Shown: positions 45,882-56,693 of the stretch, piece after piece | How positions within the stretch are numbered: position 1 is the first letter of the stretch | Layout of the letters: every line of letters starts with the position of its first letter | NCBI GenBank assembly: GCA_009784825.1 | Contig: WQXO01000003.1 | Span: 112,997-176,996 of the forward strand | Direction: 5' to 3' | DNA: 64,000 nt | Source of the DNA: Oscillospiraceae bacterium | GTDB taxonomy: Bacteria > Bacillota > Clostridia > Oscillospirales > Ruminococcaceae | The notes under the pieces: model-generated | The model's database searches: none | Seen by the model: the letters and a program-made list of their open reading frames with translations, nothing else | Told to the model about the DNA's origin: nothing | Made by a program: the position numbers and the translations under genes

Positions 45882-46142
45882 TTGAAAAGTATCAATTTTG
45901 ATAAAAACGCACAAAAACAGCTTAATAGAATTGATTTAACTACACGGTGCCGCATTATCAGCGGAATTGCAGGATTGACAGAGGAACCACCGCAGGGTGA
46001 CATTAAACAATTGAAAGGTTCACTTAACGGATTAAGTCGTTTGAGAGTCGGCAGTTGGCGTATAATATATGAAGCAACGGATGAAACTATTAACATACTT
46101 GTAATTTCTTCTCGTGGCGGAGTATATAAGAAAGGGGTGTAA
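45882..46142 (+). CDS. RelE/ParE-family toxin
   Basis: 86 aa, GDIKQLKGSLNGLSRLRVGSWRIIYEATDETINILVISSRGGVYK; TTG start. Confidence 0.9.
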   Translation: MKSINFDKNAQKQLNRIDLTTRCRIISGIAGLTEEPPQGDIKQLKGSLNGLSRLRVGSWRIIYEATDETINILVISSRGGVYKKGV

Positions 46143-46146
46143 TTAA

Positions 46147-46380
46147 ATGGCAGTTCAAGCTAATATTATTGATGTTGTCGAAAAGCTGTCTGATGACCGA
46201 AAAGGTATAATTTACAAACTTGCCCTTGACATGCTTTCCGCCCAACAATCAGAAGATTTTGATTCTTTCTCGTCAGAAGATATAAAGAAAATCCAAGAAG
46301 CACGAAAACGGGTAGGGGCAGGGGATTGCATTTCTTTTTCGTCTGCGGGTGAAATGGTGACACATTTTGGAGTGCAGTGA
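46147..46380 (+). CDS. Antitoxin partner of the RelE-type toxin
   Basis: 77 aa acidic small ORF 4 bp downstream of the toxin. Confidence 0.75.
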   Translation: MAVQANIIDVVEKLSDDRKGIIYKLALDMLSAQQSEDFDSFSSEDIKKIQEARKRVGAGDCISFSSAGEMVTHFGVQ

Positions 46381-48796: not shown

Positions 48797-48956
48797 TTTA
48801 AAGATTTCTCCTATTAAATTAAAGTGATACAAAGAGCAGTATAACATATAATGTCAGCATTGTCAACTATTCTCAGAAAAAGTTTTTTTAAGGCATTGAC
48901 ATTTATATTGCGTTATGATATACTTATGACATCAATTAATGAATGGGGGTGGCGTT

Positions 48957-49226
48957 ATGACCCAAACAACAATAAGACTTGACCCTTCTTTAAAAAAAGA
49001 ATTTGCAAAGACCTGTGATGATATGGGCTTATCTATTTCATCGGCAATAACCATTTTCGCAAAAGCGGTTGTGCGTGAACAGCGTATTCCGTTTGAGGTT
49101 GCCGTTGCTTCAAGGTTAAACGCTGTGACTGTTGCTGCAATTAAGGACAGTGAAACAGGTGTCGGCGTGAAAAGCTTCAAAACCCCTGAGGAATTGTTCG
49201 CAGAATTAAATTCGGAGGACGATTAA
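48957..49226 (+). CDS. dinJ: RelB/DinJ-family antitoxin
   Basis: MTQTTIRLDPSLKKEFAKTCDDMGLSISSAITIFAKAVVREQRIPFEV; TTGACA-N17-TATACT promoter upstream. Confidence 0.92.
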   Translation: MTQTTIRLDPSLKKEFAKTCDDMGLSISSAITIFAKAVVREQRIPFEVAVASRLNAVTVAAIKDSETGVGVKSFKTPEELFAELNSEDD

Positions 49227-49359: not shown

Positions 49360-49388
49360 TTGACAAACGAGAAAAAAAGTGGTATAAT
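49360..49388 (+). promoter_or_regulatory. Promoter of candidate sRNA, module 1 (TTGACA-N17-TATAAT)
   Basis: Consensus -35/-10 with 17-bp spacing. Confidence 0.75.
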
Positions 49389-49393
49389 ACAAA

Positions 49394-49485
49394 TAGAAAA
49401 AGGGTACACCGATAGGCGGTCACCCTCATTGCACTTTATAAATAGCCGCGTGCTTTTGGGAAGAGGCGGCTATTTCCTTTTTTTA
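49394..49485 (+). ncRNA. Candidate antisense-type sRNA, module 1
   Basis: Consensus promoter ends ~6 bp upstream; 5' hairpin AGGGTACACCG...CGGTCACCCT; terminator AATAGCCGC...GCGGCTATTTCCTTTTTTT at 49441-49484 overlaps the 3' end of the microprotein on the other strand. Confidence 0.6.
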
Positions 49486-49556
49486 TTGCTGTTCTGCATT
49501 ATGTTAATCACGTTACAGATAACGAGAGATAAAGTAAGAAACTCTAACCACGTCAT
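49470..49556 (-). CDS. 28-aa membrane microprotein (candidate type I toxin) MTWLEFLTLSLVICNVINIMQNSNKKRK
   Basis: Strong RBS AAGGGGGTGAG; homologous to the microprotein at 55034-55114; single hydrophobic helix plus KKRK tail. Confidence 0.7.
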   Translation of the reverse strand: MTWLEFLTLSLVICNVINIMQNSNKKRK

Positions 49557-49633
49557 ATAGCTCACCCCCTTTCGAGGGAGGGTTGACCGCACTACCGCTT
49601 GAGTATACCCTTAGACATATCCATGTCCTCTGT

Positions 49634-49665
49634 CATTATATCACGCAATATTTAATATTGTCAAC
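49634..49665 (-). promoter_or_regulatory. Promoter of microprotein mRNA, module 1 (TTGACA-N18-TATAAT), followed by 5' hairpin GACATggatATGTC
   Basis: Minus strand TTGACAATATTAAATATTGCGTGATATAATGACAGAGGACATGGATATGTCTAAGGG. Confidence 0.7.
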
Positions 49666-51656: not shown

Positions 51657-52358
51657 ATGAAATTAAGGAAAATTATGGCAGTTGTTATCGCAGTTGCAAT
51701 GTGCTTCGGCGTAATGACAGTAGCAGCAAGTGCGGCAGACGTATCCACTATTGATGGTGGCGGCGACCAAAAATGGGTTGACTTCGGTACCGGTTTTGTA
51801 GACGGTAAAGAATACACTTTAGCGTTCACAGTTGTATCGGCAGGCGAAGGTAATATCCGTGTTCGTACTTGTGAAGAAACTGCATGGGACGCTTGGACTG
51901 ACCTCGGTGCGGCTAACTCTCATGAAGTAGCGGCAGGCGGAACAGCAACACATCTTCCCGCACTTTTCACCGGCTTTACAGCAGGTCAAACTGTTGAAAA
52001 CACCGTAAAGTTCACATGGGGCAAAGACACAGGTGCAGGTAAAGTTGAATGGGAATACACTGAAGTTCTTGCTATCGTTGGTGCGGCAGGTTGGAAAGAT
52101 TTTGAAGTTACTCAAGTTAAACTTGATGGCGTTGTTATCTACTCAGCAGGCGGTGCGGCTACTACAACCACCGACACAACTACCACAACATCTGACGCAA
52201 CCACAACCACAACCACAACTACAACTACAACCACCACAACAGCAGCGGCTGACGGCGACAAGATTAACGAAGACACAGGCGTTACCGGCGTTGTTGCTCT
52301 GTTCGGCGTAGCAGTTGTTGCTTCCGGAGCAGTTGCGTTAAGCAGAAAAAGAAAATAA
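51657..52358 (+). CDS. Secreted surface protein B, poly-Thr linker and NEDTG-hydrophobic-RKRK C-terminus
   Basis: Signal peptide; TTTTDTTTTTSDATTTT... linker; DKINEDTGVTGVVALFGVAVVASGAVALSRKRK. Confidence 0.85.
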   Translation: MKLRKIMAVVIAVAMCFGVMTVAASAADVSTIDGGGDQKWVDFGTGFVDGKEYTLAFTVVSAGEGNIRVRTCEETAWDAWTDLGAANSHEVAAGGTATHLPALFTGFTAGQTVENTVKFTWGKDTGAGKVEWEYTEVLAIVGAAGWKDFEVTQVKLDGVVIYSAGGAATTTTDTTTTTSDATTTTTTTTTTTTTTAAADGDKINEDTGVTGVVALFGVAVVASGAVALSRKRK

Positions 52359-52431
52359 TACTTAGAAACATAGAAAACGCCTTGTTGTATTGACAGGGCG
52401 TTTTTGTTTGTGGTATAATGGTAAGGGATAA

Positions 52432-52470
52432 GAGGGGTGCGTTGAAACTTAAATCGTTGATTAATAAAAA
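52432..52470 (+). pseudogene. Residual 3' end of a second copy of the coiled-coil gene at 53675
   Basis: GGTGCGTTGAAACTTAAATCGT matches the 3' end of the 53675-53959 ORF (GGTGCTTTGAAACTTAAATCGTAGG); upstream TTTTTGTTTGTGGTATAATGGTAA is shared. Confidence 0.6.
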
Positions 52471-52485
52471 AAGGGGGGTAAGATT

Positions 52486-52653
52486 ATGGCATTTGAAACA
52501 AAAGCACTTTTATCAACAATTGCGGATAACATCGCAAAATCTGAAACGCTTAAAGAAGCATATTCTGTAGTAATGAAAGCAGCGAATGTAGAGGGTGTGT
52601 CTCTTCCGAGTTATGAAGAAGCTGTGGAAGAAGTCAAAGCAATGAGGAAATAA
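52486..52653 (+). CDS. Small hypothetical protein (55 aa)
   Basis: MAFETKALLSTIADNIAKSETLKEAYSVVMKAANVEGVSLPSYEEAVEEVKAMRK, GGGGGG RBS. Confidence 0.65.
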   Translation: MAFETKALLSTIADNIAKSETLKEAYSVVMKAANVEGVSLPSYEEAVEEVKAMRK

Positions 52654-52775
52654 ATCAAAGGGGCTGTTCACACTTATGAACCGCCCCCCTTTTTTGCAAA
52701 ACCTTGTCAAAATCCCTCGGTTAAGCCAATAACTGGCACTTTTGCATTATATTGTCGCTTTTGTCCGCTAAATTT

Positions 52776-52819
52776 TGTCTATTCTGTCAATTGAATTTTC
52801 CGCATTAATGCTGTATAAT
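52776..52819 (+). promoter_or_regulatory. Promoter of surface protein C: TGTCAATTG-N20-TATAAT
   Basis: TTTGTCTATTCTGTCAATTGAATTTTCCGCATTAATGCTGTATAAT. Confidence 0.75.
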
Positions 52820-52870
52820 ATAACCACCAACGGTATGAACACATACTAAATATTTTGGAGGATTTATCAA

Positions 52871-53551
52871 ATGAAAAAAGTAATGGCGATTATTATAGCA
52901 TGTGCTATGTGTGCATGTTTAGTAGTTACAGTAAGTGCAAACCCGAAAGACGCTGACCCCACAAACGCTCCTATCGGTGCAAGCGGACATACACACGCAT
53001 TATTCGCAGACGGCGGCGGAGATACTTATTCTTCTCCTTACACCAACAAATGGTCTGAAGTTGCTTCCTTTACTGTAAAGTTCAACATCACCAACTGGGA
53101 TGAAATGGTAGAAGCACAAGATGGCGACCCCGTTGACGTACAGGTTGTTCTCAACTCTGCTGCACACGGCTGGGGCAACATCGGTGATGATTTAAACCAG
53201 TGGGGCAATATTGCTCTTGCAAATGCAACTGATTCTATGACTCACGTTTTAGACGGTGCACTTGATGATGACCAGTATTTCCAGGTTTGCGTAGGTGCAT
53301 GGAATGGTTTAGAGGGTACTTTCTCTATTACATTATTTAATGCAGCAGGTGCAGAAATCGCATTAGTTAAAGCAGGTGCTGTTACCACAACAAGCGATAC
53401 TATTACTACAACCACAACCACAACTACAACCACAGCAGCTGCTGACGGTGACAAAATCAACGAAGACACCGGTATCGTAGGCGTTGCTGCATTAGCAGGC
53501 GTTGCAGTTGTTGCTGCAGGTGCTGTTATGGTAAGCAGAAGAAGAAAATAA
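52871..53551 (+). CDS. Secreted surface protein C, poly-Thr linker and NEDTG C-terminus
   Basis: MKKVMAIIIACAMCACLVVTVSA; TTTTTTTTTT linker; NEDTGIVGVAALAGVAVVAAGAVMVSRRRK. Confidence 0.85.
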   Translation: MKKVMAIIIACAMCACLVVTVSANPKDADPTNAPIGASGHTHALFADGGGDTYSSPYTNKWSEVASFTVKFNITNWDEMVEAQDGDPVDVQVVLNSAAHGWGNIGDDLNQWGNIALANATDSMTHVLDGALDDDQYFQVCVGAWNGLEGTFSITLFNAAGAEIALVKAGAVTTTSDTITTTTTTTTTTAAADGDKINEDTGIVGVAALAGVAVVAAGAVMVSRRRK

Positions 53552-53674
53552 TTCTTAAAGCAAACATAGAAACCGCCTTGCATAGAGTAGGGCGGTTTTG
53601 TTGTTGACAGGTATTTTTGTTTGTGGTATAATGGTAAAAGACGGGAAAAGTAATTACATAAAAGGAGCATGATT

Positions 53675-53959
53675 ATGGAAAATCAAGTGTTAAACAAGAT
53701 ATTAGAAAAGTTAGACGGATTGCAAGAAATTGTTGCTAAGCAGGGCAAGAAAATTGATGAATTGTCCGGTATGGTTGAGGATATTCATTATAGCGTTGCT
53801 AAAATCGAAGACGAACACGGTCGAAAGATAGGTTCTATATATGATATGCTTTCTTTAAACCAAGATAATTTAATCAACCACGATACCCGTATTTCCACAG
53901 CTGAACATAAAATTGAAGCAATTCAAATAGATGTTGGTGCTTTGAAACTTAAATCGTAG
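53675..53959 (+). CDS. Small coiled-coil protein
   Basis: MENQVLNKILEKLDGLQEIVAKQGKKIDELSGMVEDIHYSV... heptad pattern; AAGGAGC RBS. Confidence 0.75.
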   Translation: MENQVLNKILEKLDGLQEIVAKQGKKIDELSGMVEDIHYSVAKIEDEHGRKIGSIYDMLSLNQDNLINHDTRISTAEHKIEAIQIDVGALKLKS

Positions 53960-54070
53960 GTTAATATATTCTGTTAAACCTTGTCAAAATCCCTCGGTGG
54001 GCAGGGGAAGAACTTGGGCATCCCCCTTGAAACATGGTGTTTTTGCATTATATCGTGACTTCTGACCGGT

Positions 54071-54120
54071 AAAATTTGGTAATAATGCCTATTGTTTTTT
54101 TGGCGTTTTTATTATATAAT
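54071..54120 (+). promoter_or_regulatory. Promoter of surface protein D: TGCCTATTG-N20-TATAAT
   Basis: GGTAATAATGCCTATTGTTTTTTTGGCGTTTTTATTATATAAT. Confidence 0.7.
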
Positions 54121-54182
54121 ATACGTACCAACGGTATGGACACATACTAAAAACAAACATAACATTTTGGAGGATTTATCAA

Positions 54183-54842
54183 ATGAAAAAAGTAATGGCA
54201 ATTATTATAGCATGTGCATTATGTGCAGGCTTGGTTATCACAGCAAGTGCGGCAACTTTCGATTTACCGACCACTCCGCCGAAAGAAAATAACGGCAACC
54301 AATGGATTTACGGAAGTATCGGAATGGACGGCGAAGACGTTCCCGGACTTACATGGGAAATCTTACAATCCGCTAAAAAACTGATTATCGTTCTTAACAA
54401 TGCTATTCCTGAAGCTGACCTTGAAGAAACAGGTTTCGGTTTAGTATGGCAAGCTCCCGTTGATGGTTGGGGTTGGAACCAAGTAATATTTGATGCTGAA
54501 GATGTATACAATGCAGCAACAAAGACAATCACTTTTGATTTAACACTGATGAAGAACTATGACGACTGGCTCGAAGAAGATGAAAGAGGCAAATTAGTTC
54601 CGAGCATTTATGTTGGTGAAGATGATGGTGGTTGGGCGTCTGTAGGTATTTCTAAGATTTACCTTGATGGCGTTGTAGCTGCTACAACTACAACAACAAC
54701 CACTACTACAACTACTACAACCACAGCTGCTGCTGACGGTGACAAAATCAACGAAGACACCGGTATCGTAGGCGTTGTTGCATTAGCAGGCGTTGCAGTT
54801 GTTGCTGCAGGTGCTGTTATGGTAAGCAGAAGAAGAAAATAA
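54183..54842 (+). CDS. Secreted surface protein D, paralog of E, poly-Thr linker and NEDTG C-terminus
   Basis: Signal peptide; ATFDLPTTPPKENNGNQWIYGS... shared with protein E; poly-Thr tract. Confidence 0.87.
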   Translation: MKKVMAIIIACALCAGLVITASAATFDLPTTPPKENNGNQWIYGSIGMDGEDVPGLTWEILQSAKKLIIVLNNAIPEADLEETGFGLVWQAPVDGWGWNQVIFDAEDVYNAATKTITFDLTLMKNYDDWLEEDERGKLVPSIYVGEDDGGWASVGISKIYLDGVVAATTTTTTTTTTTTTTAAADGDKINEDTGIVGVVALAGVAVVAAGAVMVSRRRK

Positions 54843-54908
54843 GAATTTCTTAAAGCAAACATAGAAAACGCCTGTCGTATTGACGGGCGTTTTTGTTTGC
54901 GAAAGGTA

Positions 54909-54937
54909 TTGACAAATTAAAAAACATGAGTTATAAT
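54909..54937 (+). promoter_or_regulatory. Promoter of candidate sRNA, module 2 (TTGACA-N17-TATAAT)
   Basis: Perfect consensus with 17-bp spacer, same as module 1. Confidence 0.75.
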
Positions 54938-54942
54938 AACAA

Positions 54943-55045
54943 TAGGAAAAGGCAGACCAAGTGACGGTCGCTCCCTCAAAGTTGAATGGTTATCAACAAA
55001 ATTGCCAACAACCGCCTTGTTAGAGCAGGGCGGTTATTTCCGTTT
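54943..55045 (+). ncRNA. Candidate antisense-type sRNA, module 2
   Basis: Terminator-like AACCGCC...GGCGGTT at 55010-55035 overlaps the microprotein 3' end on the opposite strand. Confidence 0.55.
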
Positions 55046-55114
55046 ATAGTCATGTATTAATCGCAGTGCGTTACATACAACCAATGCGAGCGTCAGAAAT
55101 TCCAACCACTCCAT
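55034..55114 (-). CDS. 26-aa membrane microprotein (candidate type I toxin) MEWLEFLTLALVVCNALRLIHDYKRK
   Basis: RBS AAGGAGGTGATGTT-ATG; shares MxWLEFLTLxLVxCN...KRK with module 1. Confidence 0.72.
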   Translation of the reverse strand: MEWLEFLTLALVVCNALRLIHDYKRK

Positions 55115-55185
55115 AACATCACCTCCTTTCGCAAGGAGGAAAAACGACCGCCACCGTGTAGGTCTGCCTTAGACATGTCCATGTC

Positions 55186-55230
55186 CTAAGTAATTATATC
55201 ATATTATGGCAAATTTTGTCAAACATAATA
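55186..55230 (-). promoter_or_regulatory. Promoter of microprotein mRNA, module 2 (TTGACA-N18-TATAAT), followed by 5' hairpin GACATggacATGTC
   Basis: Minus strand TTGACAAAATTTGCCATAATATGATATAATTACTTAGGACATGGACATGTCTAAGGC. Confidence 0.7.
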
Positions 55231-55343
55231 CTTGCAATTTTTTCTAATTGTAAATTCATACATATTCCATATACTATAACGGTAAGCGGTTGAGAAATTC
55301 TCATTCGCAAACCAAATCAGAAAATATTGTGAGGATTTATAAA

Positions 55344-55982
55344 ATGAAAAAACTGTTATCAATTATTATTGCGTGTGCGTTATGCATGAGCTTAGTAGTT
55401 ACAGCAAGTGCGGCGACGTTCGATTTGCCGACAACCCCTCCGAAAGAAAACAACAAGAACCAGTGGATTTATGGTAGTGAGGGTATGGAGGGAGAGAATG
55501 TTCCCGGTCTTACTTGGGCAATATTAAAATCTGCCAAGAAAATGATTGTTGTTCTTAAAGAAGCAATCCCCGACGAAGAATTAGAGGAAACAGGTATTGG
55601 TATGGTGTGGCAAGCTCCCGTTGACGGTTGGGGCTGGAACCAGCAGTTATTTGAAGTTGAAGATGTATATAATGCAGCAACAAAAACCATTACTTTTGAC
55701 TTAACCAAAATGAAAAACTATGATGATTGGCTTGAAGAAGAAGAGAGAGGTAAGTTAGTTCCCAGCATTTATATCGGCGAAGATGACGGCGGCTGGGCAG
55801 AGGTAGGTATTGAGAAAATATACCTCGACGGTGTCACTCTTCCTACTACAACAACGACCACCCCTCCTCCTGAGGGCGACAAGGTTAACGAGCCTACCGG
55901 CGTTACGGGTGTTGCAGTATTAACAGGTGTAGCGGTCATCGCTGTGGGTGCAATTGCATTAAGCAGAAAAAGAAAGCAGTAA
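55344..55982 (+). CDS. Secreted surface protein E, paralog of D, NEPTG C-terminus
   Basis: MKKLLSIIIACALCMSLVVTASAATFDLPTTPPKENNKNQW...; short Thr tract; DKVNEPTGVTG-hydrophobic-RKRK. Confidence 0.87.
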   Translation: MKKLLSIIIACALCMSLVVTASAATFDLPTTPPKENNKNQWIYGSEGMEGENVPGLTWAILKSAKKMIVVLKEAIPDEELEETGIGMVWQAPVDGWGWNQQLFEVEDVYNAATKTITFDLTKMKNYDDWLEEEERGKLVPSIYIGEDDGGWAEVGIEKIYLDGVTLPTTTTTTPPPEGDKVNEPTGVTGVAVLTGVAVIAVGAIALSRKRKQ

Positions 55983-56084
55983 AATCATAAACCATATAAA
56001 AAATACCGATTTTTGAATAAATTGGTATTTTTTTTTAATACTATTATTACTCACAATAAATATACACAAATTTCGGAGGTAAAT

Positions 56085-56693
56085 ATGAGCAGAAGCTTAA
56101 AAAGAACAGTGGCGTTTTTCATAATGCTGTCAATGGCGTTTTCCTTTGTCGTAACAGCGGCAGAGGCGGTTGAGTTCAGTGAAACAAACCGTGATGTTGA
56201 AATAATCGTGGGCGGACATGTAGGTTATCAATTCGTGGGGAGCGAGTCGAACCCTGCGTTTGTGGTAGACATTACGAAAATTGCATCAGTCAAGTATTTC
56301 ATCAAAGTCCCCGAAGACCTTGAGCATTGGGGCGTAACCGAGGTTCACCTGATTTATAATTCTGAAACCACCGGTTGGGTTGCCGATACGCATGACCTGA
56401 ATGACGGGTTAATTATCGAGATAGAAATATGTGACCCTCTACCCGCGGGGGACTATTTTGAAGCGATATTCGGGACGTGGGATGACAATGTCACCGGGAC
56501 AGTCAGCTTCGAGGTGTATGACTCGAGCGGGGAAGTCCTCGGGACATGGTCACAGGTTGAGGGTGCGGAAGACCTTACACCGGTTGAACAATCGCCTCCC
56601 ACAGGCAGTCAGGACTTAGCGGCACTCGGACTGGCGACTGCGTTGTCCTTAGGGATAATTATCGCCGCACGCAGGAAGAAAAAGTCGGAATAG
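56085..56693 (+). CDS. Secreted surface protein F, SPPTG-type C-terminus
   Basis: Signal peptide; EQSPPTGSQDLAALGLATALSLGIIIAARRKKKSE; GGAGG RBS. Confidence 0.8.
   Translation: MSRSLKRTVAFFIMLSMAFSFVVTAAEAVEFSETNRDVEIIVGGHVGYQFVGSESNPAFVVDITKIASVKYFIKVPEDLEHWGVTEVHLIYNSETTGWVADTHDLNDGLIIEIEICDPLPAGDYFEAIFGTWDDNVTGTVSFEVYDSSGEVLGTWSQVEGAEDLTPVEQSPPTGSQDLAALGLATALSLGIIIAARRKKKSE

Follow-up and report, generated by a model that had tools for sequence, protein, structure and literature searches.

A locus from an Oscillospiraceae genome with the sequence anatomy of a bsrG/SR4-like type I toxin-antitoxin module on a widely used RNA scaffold

The toxin mRNA of the bsrG/SR4 type I system contains a main helix (P1) and a stem at the Shine-Dalgarno (SD) sequence, is overlapped at its 3' end by the antisense RNA, and is bound by the latter from a YUNR loop (PMC6562991). 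Long-distance pairing between the 5' and 3' ends of the full-length toxin mRNA was also described for hok/Sok and aapA/IsoA, in which it masks the SD sequence until the 3' end is trimmed (PMC6733600). Antisense overlap at the 3' end of the toxin mRNA is likewise known for txpA/RatA and sprG/SprF, and the SD sequence of txpA is very strong (PMC3531473; PMC8309996). In Clostridioides difficile, type I modules (CD2517.1-RCd8 and others), both chromosomal and in prophages, encode small basic-tailed membrane toxins of 34-59 aa, for which a review reports no sequence homology with the toxins of B. subtilis (PMC6563280).

The locus described here (module 2) and a related one (module 1) lie in a 64 kb stretch of DNA, referred to below as the window (64,000 nucleotides, positions 112,997 to 176,996 of contig WQXO01000003.1 of Oscillospiraceae bacterium, assembly GCA_009784825.1; Table 1). 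We consider it very probable that module 2 represents a chromosomal type I toxin-antitoxin locus constructed on the plan of bsrG/SR4 of B. subtilis, its transcription and toxicity being inferred. On its sequence, the best reading is a module in the style of bsrG and txpA, with a putative new toxin branch placed on an apparently undescribed, widely used RNA scaffold. The first-pass annotation of this DNA had recognized a paralogous pair of microprotein and sRNA, which was right but incomplete, as the anatomy is that of a type I toxin-antitoxin system and module 2 is one of 11 scaffold copies; where two copies had been implied, the genome has four of the peptide and 11 of the RNA scaffold.

Table 1. 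Predicted parts of module 2, and the position of module 1, in window coordinates.
Feature	Position	Strand	Remarks
mRNA promoter, module 2	55222-55193	-	TTGACA-N18-TATAAT, 12/12 consensus match
sRNA (antitoxin) promoter, module 2	54909-54937	+	TTGACA-N17-TATAAT, 12/12 consensus match
Predicted mRNA 5' end, module 2	~55186	-	
5'-terminal stem-loop of mRNA, GGACAUGGACAUGUCUA	55170..55186	-	Minimum-energy fold; candidate 5' stabiliser
Leader element, AAGGCAGACC..CGGTGGCGGTCG	55145..55170	-	Partner of mRNA 3' end in long-distance helix
Hairpin sequestering the SD sequence, CCUCCUUGCGAAAGGAGG	55122..55139	-	-10.7 kcal/mol
ORF, MEWLEFLTLALVVCNALRLIHDYKRK and stop codon	55114-55034	-	26 codons; predicted one-helix membrane peptide toxin
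Shared hairpin directly past stop codon (sRNA terminator)	55007..55038		Arms 55007-55019 and 55026-55038
mRNA 3' element, GAGGGAGCGACCGUCACUUGGUCUGCCUU	54949..54978	-	Leader partner and terminator-like hairpin, then U-tract
Predicted antisense RNA (antitoxin)	54944..55048	+	~105 nt, nested in mRNA 3' part; promoter and terminator
Module 1 ORF, MTWLEFLTLSLVICNVINIMQNSNKKRK and stop codon	49556-49470	-	
Module 1, complete	49360..49664		sRNA promoter 49360-49388 (+) to mRNA promoter 49664-49635 (-)

The kinship of the two peptides proposed in the first pass is borne out by the motif TGGYTNGARTTYYTNAC, which occurs twice in the window against an expectation of 0 (100 shuffles), and the convergent promoters it described, with spacers of 17 nt for the sRNA and 18 nt for the mRNA, are as stated. 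There are 11 promoters with a 12/12 match in the window, and four of these are the promoters of modules 1 and 2. The strong ribosome-binding site attributed to module 2 is present as a strong SD sequence, AAAGGAGGTGA. The encoded peptide (26 aa) is of the type I toxin kind, that is, small (<60 aa) and hydrophobic (hydropathy 1.75 across residues 3-20), with one predicted transmembrane helix and a charged C terminus (DYKRK). All the parts of module 2 recur in module 1, including the pairing of leader and 3' end, while the 5'-terminal stem-loop was found in the minimum-energy folds of only modules 1, 2, and 4 and locus L017. Module 2 is flanked by two paralogous secreted-protein genes (54183-54842 and 55290-55982), which belong to a series at 51657-56693 with Thr-rich linkers and a DTG..TM..RRRK tail. 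A RelB-type antitoxin gene (PF04221, E 1.8e-16; window 48939-49226) lies ~130 bp from module 1, and 3 kb beyond that gene there is a RelE-like/antitoxin-like ORF pair (window 45882-46380); putative type I and type II loci appear to stand side by side near module 1.

Besides the four copies in this genome, ~18 further copies of the peptide (here the WxEFLT peptide) were found with a degenerate DNA pattern in 85,488 species genomes, nearly all of them in Oscillospiraceae MAGs, many of which have isolate names resembling termite-gut bins (the host being inferred from the names). One more copy is present at 1500-1950 of a viral contig (L011) that encodes a phage integrase, a Zot-type protein, and a rolling-circle Rep, and which, judging from these genes, is a filamentous-phage-like element; the module lies between the integrase gene and the later Zot and Rep genes. 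Pattern matches in Nocardia, Pedobacter, Thorarchaeota, Acidobacteria, and two viral contigs (L022, L024, L026-L029, L034, L037, and L038, each inspected) had no module around them and were discarded as chance. A search of eight further genomes of the genus with a model (R1) built from leader, SD sequence, and ORF start gave no WxEFLT copy, so that a conserved housekeeping role is unsupported.

The WxEFLT ORF is under purifying selection in ~20 relatives, mostly Oscillospiraceae, as judged from alignments of its copies. Codons 9-20, which lie outside the search pattern used to collect the copies, had a BLOSUM score of 2.96 against 0.42±0.61 in column-shuffled controls (0/1000), and this strongly supports the view of the first-pass annotation that function, not chance, explains the conservation. 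Among the reading frames, frame 0 scored 3.10, compared with -1.23 and 0.32 for the others, and third codon positions were the most variable (entropy 1.42 vs 1.00 and 0.46). The codon-level check suggested in the first pass gave a ratio of mean dN to mean dS of 0.35, which rests on the 108 of 210 pairs with measurable dS (dS was saturated or undefined in 101), and the stops or frameshifts at a neutral rate that were to speak against function are absent from the complete WxEFLT copies. Near-consensus promoters in convergent orientation stand on either side of every complete copy (21/21).

The main feature of the locus, which is absent from the first-pass annotation, is the pairing of the mRNA 5' leader with the 3' end. 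This helix is present in the minimum-energy fold of 21/21 complete WxEFLT mRNAs and in nearly all of these folds encloses an SD hairpin of changed sequence; the fold energies of six mRNAs tested gave z-scores of -5.4 to -9.0 relative to shuffled controls. The helix sequences of the four genome copies differ, yet stay paired (GGCAGACC/GGTCTGCC, GGGTATAC/GTGTACCC, GGCATACC/GGTATGCC, and GGCGAACC/GGTTCGCC). The mean leader:3'-end duplex energy was -35.2 kcal/mol for cognate versus -25.5 kcal/mol for non-cognate combinations (0/20000 permutations), and 186/231 non-anchor cells in the helix columns of 33 copies were paired versus 140.9±5.9 after shuffling; covariation was counted on anchored pairs, MAFFT having misaligned the distal leader element. 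Isolated mismatches in the helix were G.U in 16 cases versus A.C in 2, many sharing one ancestral position and hence not being independent; this bias points to pairing in the mRNA strand, which requires the mRNA to extend across the entire sRNA gene. The mRNA 3' element forms a hairpin by itself, followed by 4-7 U in 8 bases. In the computed folds, the SD hairpin was closed with or without the 3' element and the SD accessibility was about equal; because it is unchanged on 3' trimming, we do not claim the long helix as a translation switch.

Two variations on this fold may be mentioned. At L006/L020 (genome G021), an extra hairpin, GTTGAATGTTATACATTCAAC, is inserted between the anti-SD and SD sequences, the pairing being kept. 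The leader of module 2 at 55145-55152 (GGCGGTYA) is also complementary to the post-stop sequence TAACCGCC of the central hairpin (55007-55038), and an alternative leader:post-stop pairing is possible on this complementarity; bsrG offers a comparable option, ACTCAAGGGAG with CTTCCCTTGAGT.

As in type I systems, the sequence complementary to the toxin gene has its own promoter (12/12) and terminator hairpin, which delimit an antisense RNA of ~105 nt. The 3' overlap at a hairpin noted in the first pass holds for the shared hairpin, whereas the extent is larger than described, the predicted sRNA lying wholly within the mRNA 3' region. Its length is ~90-106 nt across the four genome copies, each nested in the mRNA. 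The U-tract of the sRNA terminator is the complement of the C-terminal lysine codons of the toxin (mean 6.2 U in 10), and the terminator loop contains UUGG in 23/35 copies and some YUNR motif in 32/35, YUNR alone being common by chance. The sRNA promoter matches the consensus in at least 11/12 positions in 33/35 scaffold copies. Computed duplex energies were -178 kcal/mol for sRNA1 with its own mRNA versus -72 kcal/mol with mRNA2, and -211 kcal/mol for sRNA2 with its own mRNA versus -64 kcal/mol with mRNA1, while the closest cross-pairing, between modules 2 and 4, reached -104 to -109 kcal/mol. These computations predict that sRNA pairing is mostly cognate, with little cross-talk except between modules 2 and 4.

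When bsrG of phage SPBc2 (SPbeta, NC_001884), a B. subtilis prophage locus of the TxpA/BsrG family, was folded in our analysis, the result was a 5'-3' main helix with a CCCC..GGGG SD hairpin inside it. Module 2 resembles bsrG/SR4 in its convergent genes, in the antisense RNA over the 3' end of the toxin mRNA, in the main helix of leader and 3' end with a local SD stem within it, and in the small hydrophobic toxin with a basic C terminus. It differs in that the bsrG toxin has 38 aa as compared with 26 aa and no direct sequence match to it, bsrG has a terminator hairpin of its own past the main helix while the 3' pairing element of module 2 is itself terminator-like, and the sRNA of module 2 is wholly nested in the mRNA. 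The plan is shared, but membership of the bsrG/SR4 family by RNA sequence was rejected, since a covariance model built only from the 3'/antisense part of the scaffold (R2) gave no match to bsrG (L127) at E<=10. Unlike in hok and aapA, it is a local hairpin that masks the SD sequence of module 2, with the 3' element as without it in the computed folds, and hok-like activation by 3' trimming is unsupported by the computed SD accessibility. We know of no sequence kinship between the toxins of hok/Sok or aapA/IsoA and that of module 2. The 3' antisense overlap is shared with txpA/RatA and sprG/SprF as a likeness of plan, and the strong SD sequence with txpA as well; RatA is longer than the module 2 sRNA, and no Rfam RatA match was obtained here. 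Set side by side by description, the C. difficile modules are like module 2 in belonging to Clostridia and in their small basic-tailed membrane toxins, which differ in length (34-59 aa).

The RNA scaffold extends beyond the WxEFLT peptide. Model R1 already gave weak extra matches in this genome at loci with the RNA scaffold and other peptides (e.g., MEISDILLILLYVVCENAHLLMSILDSLKRK). With R2, for which R1 had supplied the training copies and whose E-values are rough, 11 scaffold copies were found in this genome at E<3e-7; module 2, itself in the training set, matched with 48.1 bits (E 1.9e-10). Matches were present in 136/297 genomes of the order (83/148 genera; up to 14 copies per genome) and in 40/300 genomes across the phylum. 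A short ORF led by an SD sequence lies directly upstream in ~35 of the 40 best R2 loci inspected, and about one third of the more distant matches in the phylum are without a clear ORF. The peptides carried are unrelated hydrophobic ones of 20-36 aa, including recognized Hol_Tox toxins (PF16935, putative holin-like toxins). The first pass had described both protein and architecture as conserved; in the family at large, conservation of the RNA architecture exceeds that of the peptide. In another genome of the same genus, five scaffold copies stand in tandem at intervals of ~335 bp (L128; G133:C1:290600-292900), four of which encode nearly identical MYITLSDLTQIGIF.. peptides. In a sibling with another peptide (L046; G000:C11:29008-29214), the toxin ORF has a premature stop (after MEISETILIILYVM), while promoters, leader helix, and antisense RNA are all intact, and it is possibly an antitoxin-only remnant.

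None of the RNA and protein family databases that were searched lists the scaffold. No covariance model of Rfam matched the module RNAs, rli33 being rejected with a score of 13.6 bits (cut-off 46), and a description of the scaffold was not found in the literature on type I toxins in Oscillospirales or Ruminococcus, of which the open-access part was covered incompletely, so that this is weak evidence of novelty. The WxEFLT peptides had no family match in Pfam, NCBIfam, PHROGs, or PADLOC, and a match to RsaX20 (E 0.1) was worse than the cut-off and was rejected. Among the siblings, MVTYxxLFQ-type peptides (A6) matched Hol_Tox PF16935 in 10/16 cases (best 2.3e-12), and some sibling peptides matched PepG1 and ComI models. 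While no WxEFLT member had a direct profile match to PF16935, hhalign aligned the WxEFLT profile with the Hol_Tox-like siblings over the full length at 92.7% probability (E 4e-7) in one profile comparison; the control with reversed sequences gave 1.7%, and comparisons with other families gave 16-44%. Judging from this weak profile link, homology of the WxEFLT family with the Hol_Tox-like siblings is probable, not proven.

We propose the following mechanism. The strong minus-strand promoter would give a ~240 nt mRNA for the 26-aa single-helix membrane peptide toxin, and this mRNA would fold on itself, with leader and 3' end in the long helix and the SD sequence in the local hairpin, and be weakly translated by default. 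From the strong convergent promoter, an antisense RNA of ~105 nt would be made whose complement in the mRNA reaches from the 3' end to the last toxin codons. First contact would probably be of the kissing-loop kind, the loop of the sRNA terminator (with UUGG or a different U-turn-like sequence) meeting its complementary loop on the mRNA; it may then spread to a full duplex, displacing the leader, and the duplex would be degraded, probably by RNase III. On loss of the module, or when antisense synthesis stops, the short-lived antitoxin would disappear and the mRNA would be translated. The module may have a role in the stability of mobile elements or in competition.

Many one-helix small proteins are regulators, and the WxEFLT peptide, being outside every named toxin family, might be a non-toxic membrane microprotein tuned by antisense RNA, the type I architecture then not being for killing. 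We regard this as improbable, because sibling scaffold copies encode recognized Hol_Tox-type toxins, because the control RNA is retained where the peptides have been exchanged, and because multiple copies, a patchy spread, and a copy on one filamentous-phage-like contig suit toxin-antitoxin modules better. That the sRNA is the functional product, acting in trans on other mRNAs with an incidental peptide, would fit its promoters, which are stronger than those of the mRNA, and the conservation of the sRNA/3' region, which is wider than that of any other part (R2 matches in 136/297 genomes). It is a decidedly unlikely reading given the coding constraint on the ORF and the retention of start codon, SD sequence, and lysine-rich end in intact copies; in addition, the leader has coevolved with the 3' end of its own copy, which points to control in cis.

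We give hardly any credence to a small non-autonomous repeat, that is, selfish DNA with inverted ends and a chance short ORF. The copies within one genome are strongly diverged and are not products of recent transposition, the G.U-biased helix mismatches need RNA pairing, and the SD hairpin and promoters are kept, even though such an element would account for the multiple copies, the inverted leader/3' sequences, and the tandem array of five copies in G133. A bsrG/SR4-like type I module is the reading that we prefer.

Because annotation fails for proteins as short as theirs, type I toxin-antitoxin loci are difficult to detect. The RNA scaffold can be searched for directly and reveals hundreds of loci in a dominant gut order. 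With so many parallel natural copies, comparison can be used to test how specific the antisense RNAs are, how toxins are exchanged, and what part the 5'-3' pairing plays. We tentatively suggest, with somewhat less than even confidence, that the conserved control RNA is a cassette for exchanging unrelated tiny membrane peptides, the helix and antisense RNA of each copy diverging and remaining specific to itself. If so, a genome would hold a set of largely independent killer cassettes, which would be useful in plasmid, phage, or prophage competition.
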